This document shows positions 24,883-54,093 of a stretch of DNA of 64,000 nucleotides, piece by piece. How positions within the stretch are numbered: position 1 is the stretch's first letter; every line of letters starts with the position of its first letter. Under the pieces are notes generated by a model. That model saw nothing but the letters and a program-made list of their open reading frames with translations. It was not told the DNA's origin and made no database searches. The translations under genes and the position numbers were made by a program. The DNA is taken from assembly GCF_900184965.1 (NCBI RefSeq), contig NZ_FXYA01000214.1, positions 62,001-126,000 of the forward strand, read 5' to 3'. This DNA is from Akkermansia muciniphila. Lineage in GTDB: Bacteria; Verrucomicrobiota; Verrucomicrobiia; Verrucomicrobiales; Akkermansiaceae.

Positions 24883-25290
24883 GCAAAAAGATTTGATAAA
24901 GGAATAGAGCCGGGAAAGTTTTTTTCTGTTGAGCCGCGTCGGGACATGCGCCTTACGGGGCAGCAAACAAAGGCGGTCTGCGGTTGGGGGGAAAGAAATA
25001 AACAATTCTGTTCCGGAGAGGCGGCCGCTTCCGGCGGAAGATAGCTGAAGCCGCTTAAAATTCCGGCGTAACGTCTGTACGGCCTTGCTGCGCCGACTGT
25101 CGGCTTTCCGTCTTTCTAGCTGCAGTCCGCTCTGTGTTCCGTGGACAAATAAGCTGACATGGAATCCGGTAAAAGAGAGACCGGACAAGACGGGGAAAAC
25201 TGCTGTGTTCTTCTGTATGGAACGGTTTTCTTGAAAAAAGGGAGATAACGGTATCTGTTCATGGTTCCCTTTCGCCGGTTTACCGGAATG
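24883..25290. other. Intergenic region, no gene recognised
   Basis: About 400 bases lie between the DUF488 start and the end of the O-antigen-ligase-like gene, both on the minus strand. It should contain the DUF488 promoter. I see no conserved reading frame, tRNA or strong hairpin. Confidence 0.45.
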
Positions 25291-27447: not shown

Positions 27448-29346
27448 TTATGCCTGTATGCCGAATTTGCGTTTAATCTCCGGGATGGAATAATTCACCA
27501 GCGTGGGCTTGCCGCCCGGGGTGCAGTACGGCACTTCGCAGGCAAGCAAATCCTTCAGGATGGCAGGGGCCCGGTGAGGGGAAATGCGCTCCCTCCAGGC
27601 GGATTTTCTGGCAAATTCCCCAATGAAGGTTTCATAAGCCATACGTTTGGCATTCCGGCTGAATTCGGACTGGGTGAGACGGTCCACCAGCTCCAGGAGA
27701 AAAGCGCGTACGTTTTCCAATTCCAGCAGGGCTGGGATAGATTCTATTCTGATGGTATTCTGGCCAAAGGGCGTAACGGCCATGCCGGCCTGGTCAAAAT
27801 GAGGGGCGAACTGCCGGATGACGGCAAAATCCCGCGGGTCCAGATCCAGCACCACCGGATCCAGAAGCTGCTGGGACGGCATGGGGGCTTCCCGGCGTGC
27901 GCGCAGCCGTTCAAAAATGATGCGTTCCCGGGCCGCCTTGGGATGCATCAGAACCAGGCCTTCCGGCGTTTCAAACAGGGCGAATTGCTGGCGGAGTGTT
28001 CCCAGATAGGAAAATCCGGCGGAGGCATCCCTTTCCGGAGCTGCGTTTTCATGGGCGTTTCGTGCTGTTTCTTCATCCTCCTGACGGTGAAAATCCAGTT
28101 TCCCCTGGGTGGCGGGAACCTGTTTCAGGGGAATGACCCGGAGGGCGGGGGGAGGGACAGGCCCATGGGATTGTCTGGCAGAGGAGGAAAGCGGCGGTTG
28201 GGCGGCGGAAGAAGCAGGGGCCGGTCTGGCGGCCGCCGGGAAAGCAGAACCTGGGTTGGTGGAACGGGCGGGTATTTCCCCATGCGGCGCGGTGGTAGAA
28301 GGGGCAGGAAGAGTTCTCTCCGGTTCCGGCGCGGCGGCAGCGTGGATTTCCTGCCGGGCGTGCTTTTGAAGAGTGTTGGCTATAGCTTCCACAATGGTAT
28401 TGACCACGTCTGCGGAACGGCGGAATCTCACCTCCTTCTTGGCGGGGTGCACATTGACGTCCACCAGAGCGGGTTCCACCTCCATATACAGAAAGAGCGC
28501 CGGATGCAGTCCGGTGGGGAAGCCTCCATAGCCGTCCCGAATGGCCCGGTTAATGAGCTGATCCTCCACGGGGCGCGTGTTCATAAAGACGTACTGCCCT
28601 TTTCTGGTGCGTCTGGCTTCGGAAAGAGGAAGCAGGAATCCCGTGATGGAAATACCGGGGCCGATGGTTGTTTCTATCGGAATCAGGGCCGCTGCTGTAG
28701 AGGCGTCCGTCAGTGCGGAAATGCGGACGCGCAGATCCGCTGTGGCGGGAAGGTCGAAAACAAGCTGGTCGTCCCGCTTATAGGCAAATCGTACTTGGGG
28801 ATAAGCCAGGGCATGCAGGCGTATCTGGTGCTCCACATGGGAGGCTTCCGTTTCTGCGGATTTGAGGAACTTGCGGCGCGCTGGAGTATTGTAAAACAAG
28901 TCGGCCACCTCAATGGCGGTGCCGGGAGAGACGCCTGAGCTTCTCGGTTCGTGCTCCAGGCCCCCGTCAATGCGTATTTCCCAGCCTTCCAGCTCCTGCT
29001 GCTGCCTGGTACAGAGTTTGAAGCGGGAAACGCTGGCAATGCTGGGCAGAGCCTCTCCGCGGAATCCCAGATGGGTGATTTCAAAAAGCTCCTCCAGGGA
29101 AGAAAGTTTGCTGGTGGCATGTCGTTTGGTGCATAGTTCGGCGTCTGCCCGTGACATGCCGCTGCCGTCGTCCGTCACCTTGATCATGCCCACGCCTCCG
29201 CGGCGTATCTCCACCCGCACGAATTTGGCGCCTGCATCCAGGCTGTTTTCCACCAGTTCCTTCACAACGGAGGCGGGGCGCTCCACTACTTCTCCTGCCG
29301 CTACTTGGCTGGCAAGAGTGGGAGACATGACGTGGATGGATGGCAT
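27448..29346 (-). CDS. mutL: DNA mismatch repair protein MutL (probably without endonuclease site)
   Basis: MutL couples mismatch recognition by MutS to strand removal. The ATG at 29346 (MPSIHVMSPTLASQVAAGEV) gives 632 residues. The GHKL ATPase motifs are intact: ELVENSLDAGAK, KVTDDGSGM, GFRGEALPSIASVS. The middle is a Pro/Ala/Ser-rich linker (about residues 345-440). In the C-terminal domain the usual DQHAAHER segment reads MHPKAARERIIFE, and the usual CPHGRP reads CTPGGKP. The metal-dependent endonuclease site therefore looks degenerate, as in MutL of MutH-using bacteria. thiS lies 43 bases upstream on the same strand. Confidence 0.93.
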   Translation of the reverse strand: MPSIHVMSPTLASQVAAGEVVERPASVVKELVENSLDAGAKFVRVEIRRGGVGMIKVTDDGSGMSRADAELCTKRHATSKLSSLEELFEITHLGFRGEALPSIASVSRFKLCTRQQQELEGWEIRIDGGLEHEPRSSGVSPGTAIEVADLFYNTPARRKFLKSAETEASHVEHQIRLHALAYPQVRFAYKRDDQLVFDLPATADLRVRISALTDASTAAALIPIETTIGPGISITGFLLPLSEARRTRKGQYVFMNTRPVEDQLINRAIRDGYGGFPTGLHPALFLYMEVEPALVDVNVHPAKKEVRFRRSADVVNTIVEAIANTLQKHARQEIHAAAAPEPERTLPAPSTTAPHGEIPARSTNPGSAFPAAARPAPASSAAQPPLSSSARQSHGPVPPPALRVIPLKQVPATQGKLDFHRQEDEETARNAHENAAPERDASAGFSYLGTLRQQFALFETPEGLVLMHPKAARERIIFERLRARREAPMPSQQLLDPVVLDLDPRDFAVIRQFAPHFDQAGMAVTPFGQNTIRIESIPALLELENVRAFLLELVDRLTQSEFSRNAKRMAYETFIGEFARKSAWRERISPHRAPAILKDLLACEVPYCTPGGKPTLVNYSIPEIKRKFGIQA

Positions 29347-29389: not shown

Positions 29390-29602
29390 CTAGCCGCCGG
29401 CGACGATGGAGACAATTTCCACCCGGTCGCCGGGAGAAACCGTCGCTTGGGAAAAATCCTGCGGCAGGAGCGCGGCCCCGTTGTGTTCCACGACAACGGG
29501 GTTGCCGTTCATGTTCAAAAGTTCCAGAAGCCGGGAGACGGAACAGGGTTCCGCCAGTTCGTACGGGGTTCCGTTCAGCATAATATCGTTCTGGGCTGCC
29601 AT
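29390..29602 (-). CDS. thiS: Sulfur carrier protein ThiS
   Basis: This 70-residue ubiquitin-fold protein ends in VAGG; the terminal Gly-Gly is thiocarboxylated to carry sulfur for thiazole synthesis. The start MAAQNDIMLNGTPYEL at 29602 and the central VVVEHNGAALLPQDF match the family. No thiG or thiF is present nearby, so its partners are elsewhere. Confidence 0.9.
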   Translation of the reverse strand: MAAQNDIMLNGTPYELAEPCSVSRLLELLNMNGNPVVVEHNGAALLPQDFSQATVSPGDRVEIVSIVAGG

Positions 29603-29701
29603 GACGGAAGCTACTGTACCACAACAGAAGAAAAAATCCAGAAACATCCCGTGGGGATGGCGTAAAAAAGATTCCGAATCAAGGCGGAAAGAAAAGAAAA
29701 C

Positions 29702-29777
29702 TGGCATCGCGTACGGGACTCGAACCCGTGTTGCCCGCGTGAAAGGCGGGAGTCCTAGACCGCTAGACGAACGCGAC
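29702..29777 (-). tRNA. tRNA-Glu (anticodon TTC)
   Basis: Read on the minus strand, the 76-base gene folds as a cloverleaf. The acceptor stem pairs GTCGCGT with ACGCGAT (first pair G-T), and the anticodon stem/loop is CCCGC-CTTTCAC-GCGGG with anticodon TTC. The T arm contains GTTCGAGTC. The 3' CCA is encoded in the DNA. The discriminator base is G, as in E. coli tRNA-Glu. Confidence 0.95.
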
Positions 29778-29800
29778 TTGAACCGGTTTTGACAACATCT

Positions 29801-29828
29801 TGGAGGCGGGAGCGGGACTCGAACCCGC
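29801..29828 (-). repeat. Isolated tRNA 3' fragment (T arm plus acceptor strand and CCA)
   Basis: On the minus strand this reads as a perfect T arm (GCGGG-TTCGAGT-CCCGC) followed by TCCCGCC, T and CCA, exactly the 3' end of a tRNA. The matching 5' acceptor strand, GGCGGGA, is not found within the next ~110 bases, and no D or anticodon arm is visible. Such fragments are typical of attachment-site duplicates left by tRNA-targeting integrases. The parent tRNA is not in this window and is not the adjacent tRNA-Glu. Confidence 0.65.
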
Positions 29829-29942
29829 GAATTTCTTTCCTTCATCTTCCTCCTTCGCTTTTCCTGTTTCCGTCATCTACGGCTACGGTCTCCGCGTGAT
29901 TTTCCTGCCTCGTGTTCCTTTCTTGTATTTCCGGTATAAGAA

Positions 29943-29970
29943 ACCCCCGCCTGCCGTTAGGCAGACGGGG
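29943..29970 (-). terminator. Probable terminator of the EF-hand gene
   Basis: CCCCGCCTGCC at 29945-29955 pairs with GGCAGACGGGG at 29960-29970 with one mismatch. On the minus strand the stem is followed by TTTCTT. It lies about 40 bases past the stop at 30012. Confidence 0.65.
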
Positions 29971-30011: not shown

Positions 30012-31148
30012 TTATTCATCATCCCCTTTCTCCTGTGACGGAGAGGGAGGATGAGGCATATCATTGTTGCCGCGGGCTGCTTTTCTGGCTTCCCAGCGCG
30101 CTTTCAGAGCCTTGGAAGCGTCAGCGTTGAGCTGGGACATTTCAGCCTCATTCAACTTTCCGTCCTTGTCGGCGTCATACTTTTCTTCAATCAGGATCCA
30201 TCCGGCAGCCATGATTGGCGCGCGGTTGGGATCAAGCTGGGGGCGAGGTCCGTTCGGACGGTTGCCGCGGGGGCCCCGGTTGCCGTCTTCACGGCGTCCT
30301 TCACCGCCTCTGCGGCCTTCCGGTCCTCTGGGAGCGCGGGGGCCTTCAGCTCTGGGGCCACCCGGACGCCTCGGACCGCCCATTTTGGGCATTCCCGGTC
30401 CTTTGGGGCCGCCGGGAACGGCATGGTGCGGGCCGGGCTGGCCGTGATGGGGGGGCATGGCCAGCAATTCCTCCGGGGAAAGCTTTCCGTCGCCGTCTTT
30501 GTCAAATTTTTTGATCATGTCGGCGGCGTGGGCTTCCTGGCGGGCTTTCATTTCTTCCATGCGTCTGGCTGCTTCCGGGTGGTTTTTGGCCCAATCTTCC
30601 CGCATGGCTTTCTTTTCCTCGTCGGAAAGCTTTCCGTCTCCATCCTTATCGTACTTCTTAAGCATTTCGGCTTTCCTGGCTTCCTGGCGGGCTTTCATTT
30701 CTTCCATGCGTTTGGCCGCTTCCGGGTGGTCCTTAAGCCATTCTTCCTGCATAGCTTTTCTTTCCTCCTTGGAAAGCTTTCCGTCCCCGTCCTTGTCGAA
30801 CTTCTTCAGAATGGCGGCTTTCCTGGCTTCCTGGGCCTTCTTGACGTCGGCCTGCAGAACGGCTATTTCCTCGTCGGAAAGCTTCCCGTCCTTGTCGGCG
30901 TCATATTTGGCCAATACCAGTTCTTCTCCGACAATCATGATGCCGGGGTCGATTCTCTTCATCTGGACCCGTTTTGGCCCCTGGCGGTCCCTGCCCCCGG
31001 CGTGATGGCGGTGGCCACCCCTTCTTTCCGGGGGGGCCTGCATTTCAGGTGCATCGGAAGGAGCCCCCGGAGCGGGAGGCGGCGGTGCGTCCTGGGCGAA
31101 CGCGGAGCATGCGGCGAAAGCCGCGGCGATAATCATTTGCTTGCTCAT
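30012..31148 (-). CDS. Secreted EF-hand protein with five Ca2+-binding loops and a Gly/Pro/Arg-rich insert
   Basis: The 378-residue protein has a signal peptide (MSKQMIIAAAFAACSAFAQD). Five canonical EF-hand loops of the D-x-D-x-DGKL-x-x-E type start near residues 83, 118, 167, 216 and 325. Loops two to four are separated by exactly 49 residues with almost identical linkers (AMQEEWLKDHPEAAKRMEEM and close variants), so this is a recent tandem repeat of a 49-residue unit. Between loops four and five lies a ~90-residue Gly/Pro/Arg-rich segment with collagen-like G-x-x spacing. The likely role is periplasmic or surface calcium binding. No partner gene is adjacent. Confidence 0.85.
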   Translation of the reverse strand: MSKQMIIAAAFAACSAFAQDAPPPPAPGAPSDAPEMQAPPERRGGHRHHAGGRDRQGPKRVQMKRIDPGIMIVGEELVLAKYDADKDGKLSDEEIAVLQADVKKAQEARKAAILKKFDKDGDGKLSKEERKAMQEEWLKDHPEAAKRMEEMKARQEARKAEMLKKYDKDGDGKLSDEEKKAMREDWAKNHPEAARRMEEMKARQEAHAADMIKKFDKDGDGKLSPEELLAMPPHHGQPGPHHAVPGGPKGPGMPKMGGPRRPGGPRAEGPRAPRGPEGRRGGEGRREDGNRGPRGNRPNGPRPQLDPNRAPIMAAGWILIEEKYDADKDGKLNEAEMSQLNADASKALKARWEARKAARGNNDMPHPPSPSQEKGDDE

Positions 31149-33659: not shown

Positions 33660-33862
33660 GAGTTGGTATGATAGGTTTGCCTTACTATGCCAGATGACGC
33701 GCGTTAAGTCACAGAAAATTTGCCGGCGGGCATGAAAAGAGTTGATTGTTGAAAACAGATCGTTACATTGCTCCCCGCACGGGCGTTCCCAGAACATGCC
33801 GTTGGTCCTTCAGGCGCATTGGCCGCCATGTCCGTGCTGAGGGGAAACCCGGTACATTACAT

Positions 33863-51307: not shown

Positions 51308-52025
51308 TAATGATAAAAATAATACATCGCTCCATGATCTGAAGCTCTCTGTTATCTAATTTTATAGACAATTTTGTATATGATATAAGTCTATCAAAAA
51401 TACATTCTATAAATTTAGGAATTTTTTGTAGACAGTGATATTTTATATAAAAATATATTGAAAAAAGAGTTGCTATTTTTGCATTTAAATTATTTTTATC
51501 TATTTTTCTATAAAATTCAACCATTGTTTTGAAATAAGAATCATCAAAATATTCATCCAAATCATTTTTATGAGATTGTAAATTAATATTATCTATTAAG
51601 TCACCAAGTATTTTGCATACTATTTGATGGCAAGTTGATAATGTACCTGTTCTTTTAGTAACTTCTCTATATTTTAATTTTTTTATCCATCTATATCTGT
51701 GCGGAAGAAGGTTTGGATTAATATTATAAAATATTGGAAATATAGTTATATTGTTGTTGTTTCTCTGATAGTAAATGAGATCTAGCTCCTTATTTGCCAT
51801 TTTACTAGAAGAAAAATTGTCTGATAATATAACAACAGCATACTTTGTTTTCAAAATTCCGTTTTTAAAATTGCTTTCATATAAATCATCTCCTAATAAT
51901 GTTTCATGGTAATCATACCATATATTCATTCCATAATTTTTTAGATGATGCATCATTGACTGAACTACCGTCTTTCTATCCTTACCAGAGAAACATAAAA
52001 AAATTTGTGGGGGAATATAATCCAT
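51282..52025 (-). CDS. thsB: TIR-domain protein (ThsB-like signal generator)
   Basis: The ATG at 52025 gives 247 residues (MDYIPPQIFLCFSGKD); a TTG six bases earlier lies inside the 17-bp repeat. The first ~140 residues are a TIR domain: IFLCFSGKDRKTVVQSMMHHL, the YDYHETLLGDD BB-loop region, YAVVILSDNF and the probable catalytic Glu in ANKELDLIYYQ (residue 80). The C-terminal ~100 residues are helical and unrecognised. In Thoeris, ThsB uses NAD+ to make a cyclic ADP-ribose isomer that activates ThsA. This is not the DUF1863-type ThsB of B. cereus but a classical TIR, as in other Thoeris loci. The convergent arrangement with thsA is unusual. Confidence 0.85.
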   Translation of the reverse strand: MDYIPPQIFLCFSGKDRKTVVQSMMHHLKNYGMNIWYDYHETLLGDDLYESNFKNGILKTKYAVVILSDNFSSSKMANKELDLIYYQRNNNNITIFPIFYNINPNLLPHRYRWIKKLKYREVTKRTGTLSTCHQIVCKILGDLIDNINLQSHKNDLDEYFDDSYFKTMVEFYRKIDKNNLNAKIATLFSIYFYIKYHCLQKIPKFIECIFDRLISYTKLSIKLDNRELQIMERCIIFIIINNQYLVK

Positions 52026-52040
52026 AATCAATAGTTATCA
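52024..52040 (-). repeat. 17-bp repeat, copy 2 (in front of the TIR gene)
   Basis: This is an exact inverted copy of 49854-49870. On the minus strand it begins 7 bases after a TATAAT -10 box at 52052-52047, so it occupies about +1 to +17 and its end overlaps the first bases of the TIR start codon. Confidence 0.85.
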
Positions 52041-52070
52041 TTCTTTATTATAGAACGGAATTATATAGAA

Positions 52071-52164
52071 TAGTCTTGTTGCAAGATTTTCAGAATATTC
52101 TGGCTATTGATATTCAGAAAATTGTTCCGACAACAAAGTCGGAAAGATCAACAAAACAAGACTA
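52071..52164. repeat. Nested inverted repeats between the TIR gene and the recombinase gene
   Basis: TAGTCTTGTT at 52071-52080 is inverted at 52155-52164. Inside it, TTTTCAGAATA at 52087-52097 is inverted with one mismatch at 52111-52121, and TTCCGAC-AACAAA-GTCGGAA forms a hairpin at 52125-52144. The array could be a recombinase binding/crossover site, or the last hairpin could simply terminate recombinase transcripts. Confidence 0.55.
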
Positions 52165-52179
52165 AAGTGAATAATTTAG

Positions 52180-53139
52180 TTATAGAATTATCTGCATATT
52201 TTTTCTTGGGTGAAAATCCTGAAGAATGGATCTTTGTTTGGCAGCACTGACGTGGGTGTAAATTTGGGTAGTGGCGAGGGAGCTGTGGCCGAGGATGGTT
52301 TGAATGTATTTTATGTCTACACCTTCTTCCAGAAGGAGAGTTGCAAAGGTATGGCGAAAGGTGTGTGGCGTTACGGGCTTGAGGATGCCGGATTTTAGGG
52401 CCAGTTTTTTGATCATGATTCTTACTGACTGGGAGGATAGATTGCGGCCTAGGCGGTTGATGAAAAAGAATGCGTTCTGCCCGGAAGAAGAAAGGCAAAG
52501 ACGCTGATATTCCCGGAGAGCGTTCAAAATAGCGTCTTGGCATAGTTGAATAACACGTTCCTTGCCTCCTTTTCCATATACCTTGATGAAGCCGTGATGG
52601 AGGTTCACGGAAGCAAGACGCAAAGCGCATAGTTCGGATACCCGGATTCCTGTGCCGAACAGAAGTTCCACTACGGCAATGTTACGGACTATTTCCTGAT
52701 AACGGTAACCCGTTTTGCCGGAACAGGCATTTTTCTCCTGGTACAATGTAGTCAGGATGGAAGATACTTCCATCGAGTCCATTACGGGAGGGAGTAGGAA
52801 GGGAACCTTGATGTTGATTTTGAGTTTTCTCATGGGGTTGATGAAGTCGTCGTCTTCCCTTTCAATAAAGTTTAGCATGGCTTTGAGCGTAGCCATTTTC
52901 CTTTTCATGGTTTTGGGCTGAAACTGCGACAGTGATTTGACGTATTGCTTCAAGTCTTCCACGGAGATGGAGGGCAGGGAACATATCTGCCGTTGATCCG
53001 TCATGAAGGCCACAAATTGTCTCAAATCGATCGCATATGCTTTCAGGGTTTTTTCACTGAGGTTTTTTTCATATTGGGAATGGAACAAAAAGCGTTCGGT
53101 AGTGTTTTCTAACAGAGATGAATGTGATGTGTTTGACAT
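52180..53139 (-). CDS. Tyrosine recombinase / integrase (XerC/D-like)
   Basis: The 319-residue protein starts at 53139 (MSNTSHSSLLENTTERFLFH). It has an N-terminal core-binding domain (about 10-95) and a catalytic domain with R166 in FGTGIRVSEL, K190 in GKGGKER, H259 and R262 in PHTFRHTFATLL, H285 in LGHSSLATTQ and the nucleophile Y294 in YTHV, so it looks active. The size and motifs fit Xer-like or small integrative-element recombinases. It borders the Thoeris module and a decayed helicase gene, so it probably belongs to the element that brought them, or acts on the nearby inverted repeats. Composition is intermediate between the AT-rich module and the host. Confidence 0.9.
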   Translation of the reverse strand: MSNTSHSSLLENTTERFLFHSQYEKNLSEKTLKAYAIDLRQFVAFMTDQRQICSLPSISVEDLKQYVKSLSQFQPKTMKRKMATLKAMLNFIEREDDDFINPMRKLKINIKVPFLLPPVMDSMEVSSILTTLYQEKNACSGKTGYRYQEIVRNIAVVELLFGTGIRVSELCALRLASVNLHHGFIKVYGKGGKERVIQLCQDAILNALREYQRLCLSSSGQNAFFFINRLGRNLSSQSVRIMIKKLALKSGILKPVTPHTFRHTFATLLLEEGVDIKYIQTILGHSSLATTQIYTHVSAAKQRSILQDFHPRKNMQIIL

Positions 53140-53560
53140 AGCGGAACGGAATAATGGGAGTATTCCGCGGTTGCAAGGTTCTTTTTGATCCTGAATGAAG
53201 ATGGAATGTTTGAGCCGTGGGACGGCTAGGTGTGCAAAAAAACAGAGAAGAATGGTTTTCGTGAAAGGGAATTTCGGCTCTGCTGACCATGGAGCCGACG
53301 ACCTATATGTCCCAGTCCGTTGCGTTCGGCGTGACGGATGAATTCTTTTTCCTTCCGGGTCATCAGATATTGTGACGGTTGTTCCTAGCCCGCTAACAAT
53401 GCCAATTTGCCTCTGAATATTATTCCTGTGACGCAGCCCCTTGAGGACATGAACCATCTGGACGCCATAGGGTGGCAACGCCTGGCTGGCAGCCCTGTAC
53501 CGTTCACTACTACAGGGGACTTTTTGAGCATTACTTGCACACTTTGTGGAAACGGTCTAA
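53140..53560. other. Region upstream of the recombinase, no intact gene
   Basis: About 420 bases hold the recombinase promoter and degenerate sequence. Short reading frames are present but none has a recognisable domain. Together with the helicase remnant that follows, the stretch looks like decayed mobile-element DNA. Confidence 0.4.
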
Positions 53561-53914
53561 CTGATTATTGACGATACAGCGGTTATTTCCATCAACGAAT
53601 TCCGGGCCAAGACGCGCTGCGTCATGCTGGATCTGGGTAGCCTGACCGTTATTGGCGTGGATTATCTACAACTGATGCGTTCTACGCATGTCCGACTTGC
53701 GGGAGTCCGCTCCCATCAAGCAGGACGCGGACATGATAGGCCTGCTTTATCGCTCCGACTACACCGCTGAGGGCAAGAACCAGCGGCAGCAGCTCGCCAA
53801 AAACCGCAACGGCTCCTCAAGAGCATTCCGCTCCGCTTTGAAGCAGAACTCATGCGTTTCTCTTTTTCCCGTCCTGATCCTTGCGATTATTTTAAGGATT
53901 CACTCTTGCCGTGA
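53561..53914 (+). pseudogene. Remnant of a DnaB-type replicative helicase gene
   Basis: Three pieces in different frames match the C-terminal half of DnaB. The first, from 53561, reads IIDDTAVISINEFRAKTR and then TVIGVDYLQLM (Walker B region). The second, from about 53688, reads SDLRESAPIKQDADMIGLLYR and QLAKNRNGSS. The third reads IPLRFEAELMRFSFS and stops at 53914. About 30-40 residues between the first two pieces are deleted and at least two frameshifts are present. The gene is dead. It probably came from a phage or other mobile element. Confidence 0.75.
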
Positions 53915-54093
53915 TTTATGGTTGGTTACACCGGACGGATGAAAGGAGCCTGGATTCCCGAGAGGGAAACGGTTTCTGGAATTTTATTTGGACAGGAATA
54001 TATCAGGCATTCCCGTTCCTCAAAAAATGATTGCCGTGTCCGTCTGAAACGGGTAGCATGCCAAAAATCGTTGTTTAATCCTGCATTATCTGT

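Follow-up and report, generated by a model that had tools for sequence, protein, structure and literature searches.

The window analysed here, a stretch of 64,000 nucleotides, corresponds to bases 62001-126000 of contig C1 in a draft genome of Akkermansia muciniphila (G000; 2.86 Mb in 215 contigs). Its only tRNA gene called by ARAGORN, and by Rfam at the gathering score, is tRNA-Glu(TTC), on the minus strand at 29702-29777. A spacer of 23 nt (29778-29800) separates this gene from a 32-nt fragment on the same strand (29801-29832) that has the features of a tRNA 3' end. On the tRNA-Glu side of the fragment, the minus strand carries a putative terminator hairpin following tRNA-Glu (29672-29689, a consensus match only) and the genes for a ThiS-family protein (29390-29599, Pfam PF02597) and a MutL-like mismatch repair protein (27448-29340, PF01119 and PF08676). 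On the other side, intergenic DNA (29833-29944) is followed by a putative terminator hairpin (29945-29970, minus strand, likewise a consensus match only) that would belong to the gene of an EF-hand protein (30012-31148, minus strand, PF00036) and now separates that gene from tRNA-Glu, which is on the minus strand too. RpoA, the alpha subunit of RNA polymerase, is encoded further on (33746-34993, plus strand, PF01000 and PF03118).

Read on the minus strand, positions 29801-29828 comprise a T stem (GCGGG), a T loop (TTCGAGT), the second strand of the T stem (CCCGC), an acceptor 3' strand (TCCCGCC), U73 and CCA. No tRNA 5' half was found at the fragment by ARAGORN, or by Rfam at the gathering score, in the 64-kb window, in agreement with the initial annotation, which had described the T arm, acceptor 3' strand and CCA as lacking one. 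That annotation had placed the fragment 24 bases from tRNA-Glu; the two are indeed adjacent, but the distance is 23 nt. A local duplication of tRNA-Glu, which it had already rejected, is ruled out by the differing acceptor strands. When the whole genome was searched with a 21-nt pattern of the fragment, allowing up to three mismatches, only two places matched, the fragment itself and a tRNA-Cys gene, while the reversed control pattern matched none, so that a chance match could be dismissed. The identity with the 3' end of this tRNA-Cys(GCA) gene (G000:C151:5019-5050) extends to position 29832 and covers 31 of 32 nt. The partner gene that the initial annotation proposed to look for exists; its acceptor 5' strand is GGCGGGG rather than GGCGGGA, and pairs with the TCCCGCC of the fragment with one G-U pair included.

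We then surveyed 76 genomes of the genus with a 29-nt tRNA-Cys end, allowing up to two mismatches. The pattern was found in 17 genomes, at 18 places, which make up the locus survey; the remaining 59 had no match at this threshold. G000 was the only one of the 17 to hold two copies of the tRNA-Cys 3' end. ARAGORN called tRNA-Cys followed by tRNA-Glu at 10 of the 18 loci, tRNA-Cys without a nearby tRNA-Glu at six (C151 among them), tRNA-Glu alone at one (the window) and no tRNA at one (a contig end). The ten intact, empty sites are of a kind that the initial annotation had proposed to look for in other strains. They include that of G060, a complete genome of the same species (2,650,075 bp) that we used as reference for synteny, in which the intact pair lies at 107 kb; G060 and G059 are the closest relatives of G000 among the genomes compared. 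The spacing between the two genes of the pair, 23 nt in L048 and L049, equals that between the fragment and tRNA-Glu in the window, where tRNA-Glu is the second gene of the ancestral pair. The tRNA-Cys sequence is identical in named Akkermansia records.

The intact tRNA-Cys gene of G000, on contig C151, is joined to one end of a phage, hereafter P; downstream of it, phage-type genes encode a primase-like protein, an endolysin and a product resembling phage DNA polymerase/primase families. On contig C3, the DNA past secDF contains a 10-bp core, GAACCCGCGA, and about 50 bp further on an intact gene for a 353-aa tyrosine integrase (PF00589), followed by a tRNA-Glu gene and by terminase, portal and head protease genes. 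This integrase is rare: some match was found in 32 of the 76 genomes of the genus, the best outside G000 being short or distant, with at most 58% identity. A scan of IMG/VR returned five loci whose integrase is 99-100% identical to that of P. In three of them (L115-L117, which have one common flank and are possibly not independent) the core connects the C151 end directly with the integrase end, as in the attP site of unintegrated P. Since both ends meet in these loci, the phage DNA on C151 and that on C3 are opposite ends of a single phage type. In L114 and L118 the order is integrase, core, tRNA-Cys 3' end, spacer and tRNA-Glu, which corresponds to a normal attR. A second scan of viral contigs, with tRNA-Cys, gave seven loci, of which three contain the intact pair and four (L149, L150, L152 and L155) have tRNA-Cys joined to P, corresponding to attL. 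A single 46-kb contig has L114 at one end and L149 at the other, and their coordinates put P at about 33 kb.

P is thus found at tRNA-Cys in five viral contigs, and the fragment is its attR wherever that end is visible. The feature at 29801-29832 is therefore also the host half of the attachment site of an integrase-bearing element for which attP, attL and attR were all found. The proposal that the fragment was left by an element targeting a tRNA 3' end is supported at both ends, by the identical fragment at the attR of L114 and L118, and by the regenerated tRNA-Cys with the other end of P on C151 and on four viral contigs. These results identify the fragment as a displaced tRNA-Cys 3' end, of the kind left when P inserts between tRNA-Cys and tRNA-Glu.

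Beyond what had been annotated, P is still present in G000 but apart from the fragment, on C151 and C3, and the fragment, bordered on its right by chromosomal DNA from the secDF side, lies at the breakpoint of a rearrangement. Local indels aside, the left part of the window is collinear with G060 from 146369 down to 107208 (the MutL-like gene with 107-112 kb), and the right part with 1734143 up to 1767070 (the EF-hand gene and its flank being 99.2% identical to 1734143-1741081). The ThiS and MutL genes accordingly mark the tRNA side, and the EF-hand and RpoA genes the secDF side. The secDF/EF-hand region is unbroken in G060 at 1734 kb, 1.63 Mb from the tRNA site in one direction and 1.02 Mb in the other; in G004 and G017, likewise, the EF-hand gene lies behind secDF and distant from tRNA-Glu. 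Two indels were noted away from the junction: about 4.3 kb of the window (49708-53978) are missing from G060 at that place, and about 9.4 kb of G060 (111752-121190) are missing from the window at 25183-25287.

Alignment of the junction contexts placed the switch of synteny at a core of 12 bp, GAACCCGCGAAT (29821-29832, plus strand), that is common to tRNA-Cys and the secDF-side site. DNA of the tRNA-Cys/tRNA-Glu site lies to its left and DNA of the secDF/EF-hand site to its right, beginning with the segment 29833-29944 that in G060 separates secDF from the EF-hand gene. The reciprocal junction, secDF - core - P integrase, is the one present on C3. Three junctions are therefore found in G000: the 5' side of tRNA-Cys with the phage (C151), the integrase with secDF (C3), and the tRNA-Cys 3' end and tRNA-Glu with the DNA that follows secDF (the window), the last two switching reciprocally at one core. 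As G000 has two tRNA-Cys 3' ends, neither the intact pair nor a phage - core - EF-hand junction remains, which argues against a mixed sample. Two simpler origins were rejected. The first was an excision scar at the empty tRNA-Cys site; clean excision would restore tRNA-Cys beside tRNA-Glu, and what lies right of the core comes from another place. After a simple insertion of P at the secDF site, the EF-hand side would adjoin phage DNA; it adjoins the tRNA-Cys 3' end and spacer.

We consider it likely that the window site is one product of site-specific recombination between the attachment site of P and a secondary site near secDF, amounting to a large chromosomal rearrangement. In this reaction, the integrase of P would recombine its attachment site at tRNA-Cys with the secondary site beside secDF. 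The two sites are exactly alike over 12 bp and at 16 of 18 positions over a longer stretch (GGAATAGAACCCGCGAAT on the secDF side in G060, against GGAATCGAACCCGCGAAT at tRNA-Cys). Sequences of 10-12 bp are too short for assembler overlap or for homologous recombination. Because the two cores are oppositely oriented in G060, direct exchange would invert the arc between the sites, 1.63 Mb or, equivalently, its 1.02-Mb complement. The same end products would be obtained whether P was first at one site or at the other.

The tRNA and secDF sites lie on opposite replication arms of G060, where GC skew, measured in samples of 10-20 kb, was negative up to 0.88 Mb and positive between 1.1 and 2.2 Mb; samples further along gave -0.09 (2.42 Mb) and about 0 (2.64 Mb). 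On either side of the window junction the skew has the same sign and size (0.061 and 0.066), which fits an exchange that preserves gene direction relative to replication. Against the model, similarity to the core was by itself no predictor of the site used. A 17-nt core had 33 matches in G060 with up to three mismatches (control, 4); tRNA-Cys matched without mismatch, one site had one, and the secDF-side site was among ten with two, a number that may include tRNA genes. It had been expected to be the best match outside tRNA genes, but does not stand out. The core was unrecognisable at the secDF-side place in the sister genome G059, and a search of the viral contigs with two exact patterns showed neither P at the secDF site nor a window-type junction. 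The T-loop base at 29816 is unlike that of tRNA-Cys and of the secDF site and the same as in the T loop of tRNA-Glu; it may be a point mutation or a conversion from the neighbouring tRNA-Glu. As neither parent site has this base, it also counts against the recombination model unless the mutation came later.

The three junctions could also be produced if P had been present both at tRNA-Cys and at the secDF site. Ordinary homologous recombination between these copies would invert the arc, and clean excision of one of the resulting hybrid prophages would leave the bare core of the window. The presence of the same 325 bases on C151 and C3 could mean that the phage tail region is present twice in the genome. 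We regard this sequence of events as unlikely, since it requires one more integration and an excision, and still requires the integrase to use the secDF site; moreover, the integrase is present in full only once in G000, the second match being weak (46% over 46 aa). Still less probable is an assembly error, in which the window and C3 junctions would be chimeric and the chromosome would have the ancestral order with P at tRNA-Cys. The genome is a draft of 215 contigs, four of which (C151, C39, C127 and C32) end in or near phage lysis or tail-fibre repeats, and a join within the C3 prophage is doubtful. However, the two junctions are exactly reciprocal, on two contigs, at a core whose 10-12 bp could hardly mislead an assembler, and a genome with only two tRNA-Cys 3' ends lacks the ancestral junctions that an error would predict. 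Finally, we give almost no weight to an expressed 3' piece of a split or intron-bearing tRNA or of a two-piece tmRNA, despite the intact T arm and CCA and the sub-threshold tmRNA score of the T arm in Rfam at a relaxed threshold (16.3 bits against a gathering score of 47, a weak match accounted for by tRNA-Cys), since complete tRNA-Cys and tmRNA genes lie elsewhere, on C151 and C3, the former of which also excludes the complete tRNA with a long internal segment envisaged in the initial annotation, since no promoter-like site was found on the fragment strand between 29600 and 30200, and since the right flank is secDF intergenic DNA and not a tRNA 5' half.

The doubtful join in the C3 prophage lies at about 69.64 kb, where P-type DNA (99.5% identical to L149) passes into DNA with a Mu-type portal and protease, beyond which the chromosome matches G060 at 2038-2044 kb. 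The 325 bases at the end of C151 are identical to C3 at this point. The join is either a second recombination between prophages or a mis-join of the draft inside a repeat; when the order of the contigs was compared with the stretches of G060, contig ends were found in phage repeats common to several prophages. The two sites are opposed in G060 but, because of this extra junction in the C3 prophage, the net change may be one inversion or a moved block. Neither the origin of the fragment nor the core junction depends on the C3 join.

The tRNA-Glu(TTC) gene carried by P was found at L081:9540-9615 (G000:C3:91.5 kb), L114:18053-18128 and L115:17572-17647. In a terminase search, which returned only P-like contigs and in which several provirus records begin inside the integrase, it was present at 10 of 12 loci (the remaining two begin past its position), and it was present at all five integrase loci (the two sets overlap). 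A stretch of 147 bp with this gene, of which about 65 bp lie upstream, shares 96% identity with the other tRNA-Glu locus of the host, from which the gene could have been taken together with its upstream flank. A scan of 500 bases in G060 gave a single promoter-like site, immediately ahead of tRNA-Cys (10 of 12 matches; mean in shuffles, 0.2), and showed a terminator-like site after tRNA-Glu. The two host genes may thus form one unit, in which P would regenerate tRNA-Cys and cut tRNA-Glu off from its promoter. No promoter-like site was found on the tRNA-Glu strand of the window between 29600 and 30200, and after the rearrangement tRNA-Glu would rely on read-through from the EF-hand gene. We suggest tentatively, as a possibility less likely than not, that the self-contained tRNA-Glu gene of P serves to make good the polar effect that its insertion has on the host gene. 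Lysogeny would then depend on a tRNA in a polar manner, and a temperate phage would have a testable reason to keep one tRNA gene. The target is not left broken, since tRNA-Cys is intact at attL. The phage tRNA is Glu and the target is Cys, and tRNA-Glu would be affected only through the loss of its promoter. The two genes are separated in G017 by a 2.8-kb remnant of a P-like phage that includes its tRNA-Cys end (L037:5618-8603), and this tRNA-Glu has a P-like upstream flank (88% over 179 bp), as if the tRNA-Glu genes of phage and host had recombined.

Each component of this picture is already known: tRNA fragments that have been displaced, secondary attachment sites, and inversions made by integrases. 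In the principle set out for the Islander database (PMC4383910), genomic islands in tRNA genes are accompanied by a displaced 3' fragment. P in the viral contigs resembles such islands in its tyrosine integrase, its tRNA 3' end target, the regenerated gene and the displaced fragment. In G000, unlike in these islands, the fragment no longer bounds the element, and since the DNA between the fragment and the regenerated gene is not an island, Islander-style pairing would mislead. A displaced tRNA fragment, usually taken as the far end of an island, here marks a chromosome breakpoint at a phage attachment core, and an island that a tool delimits by pairing a tRNA gene with its fragment can be false. 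The Thermococcus pTN3 integrase (PMC5495485) is likewise a tyrosine integrase of a mobile element; its att site is a tRNA gene, and inversions of large parts of the chromosome have been attributed to it. However, pTN3 is an archaeal plasmid whose integrase has low-specificity activity on 104-bp repeats, whereas the sites of P are exactly alike over 12 bp and the junction lies within the att core. The secondary attachment sites of phage lambda, named in PMC8637289 and PMC8371274, are similar in that an integrase acts at a chromosomal site imperfectly resembling its normal attB; the product here differs in including a chromosome-to-chromosome junction besides the phage junction. In the tRNA-dependent lysogeny of mycobacteriophages (PMC10865867), a temperate phage with a tyrosine integrase likewise enters a tRNA gene and has a tRNA gene of its own, which replaces the one that it breaks, whereas P regenerates the gene entered (Cys), and its own tRNA has the isotype of the gene that follows (Glu). 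Among the open-licence papers that our searches listed, we found no report of this tRNA-Cys phage or of a rearrangement at an att core in Akkermansia. With the integrated, unintegrated and rearranged forms all in hand, the possibility that phage integrases drive gene-order change in Akkermansia becomes directly testable.

Other insertions were noted at related sites. In L067 (G062) and L068 (G063), the 3' end of tRNA-Glu is followed, before the ThiS gene, by about 3 kb of additional DNA, so that tRNA-Glu may also be an insertion site; in L114 and L118, phage-like DNA is likewise present past tRNA-Glu. Relative to G060, C3 contains a 41-kb insertion beside tmRNA (G000:C3:11.05-52.09 kb; L193, L194 and L091), with a 117-bp repeat of its flank and, at the far end, an integrase. 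On C39, a segment (G000:C39:117789-117823) matches the 3' end of tRNA-Glu and its flank over 34-36 nt and is possibly another displaced tRNA fragment; about 100 bp away, 35 bp are identical to phage DNA.
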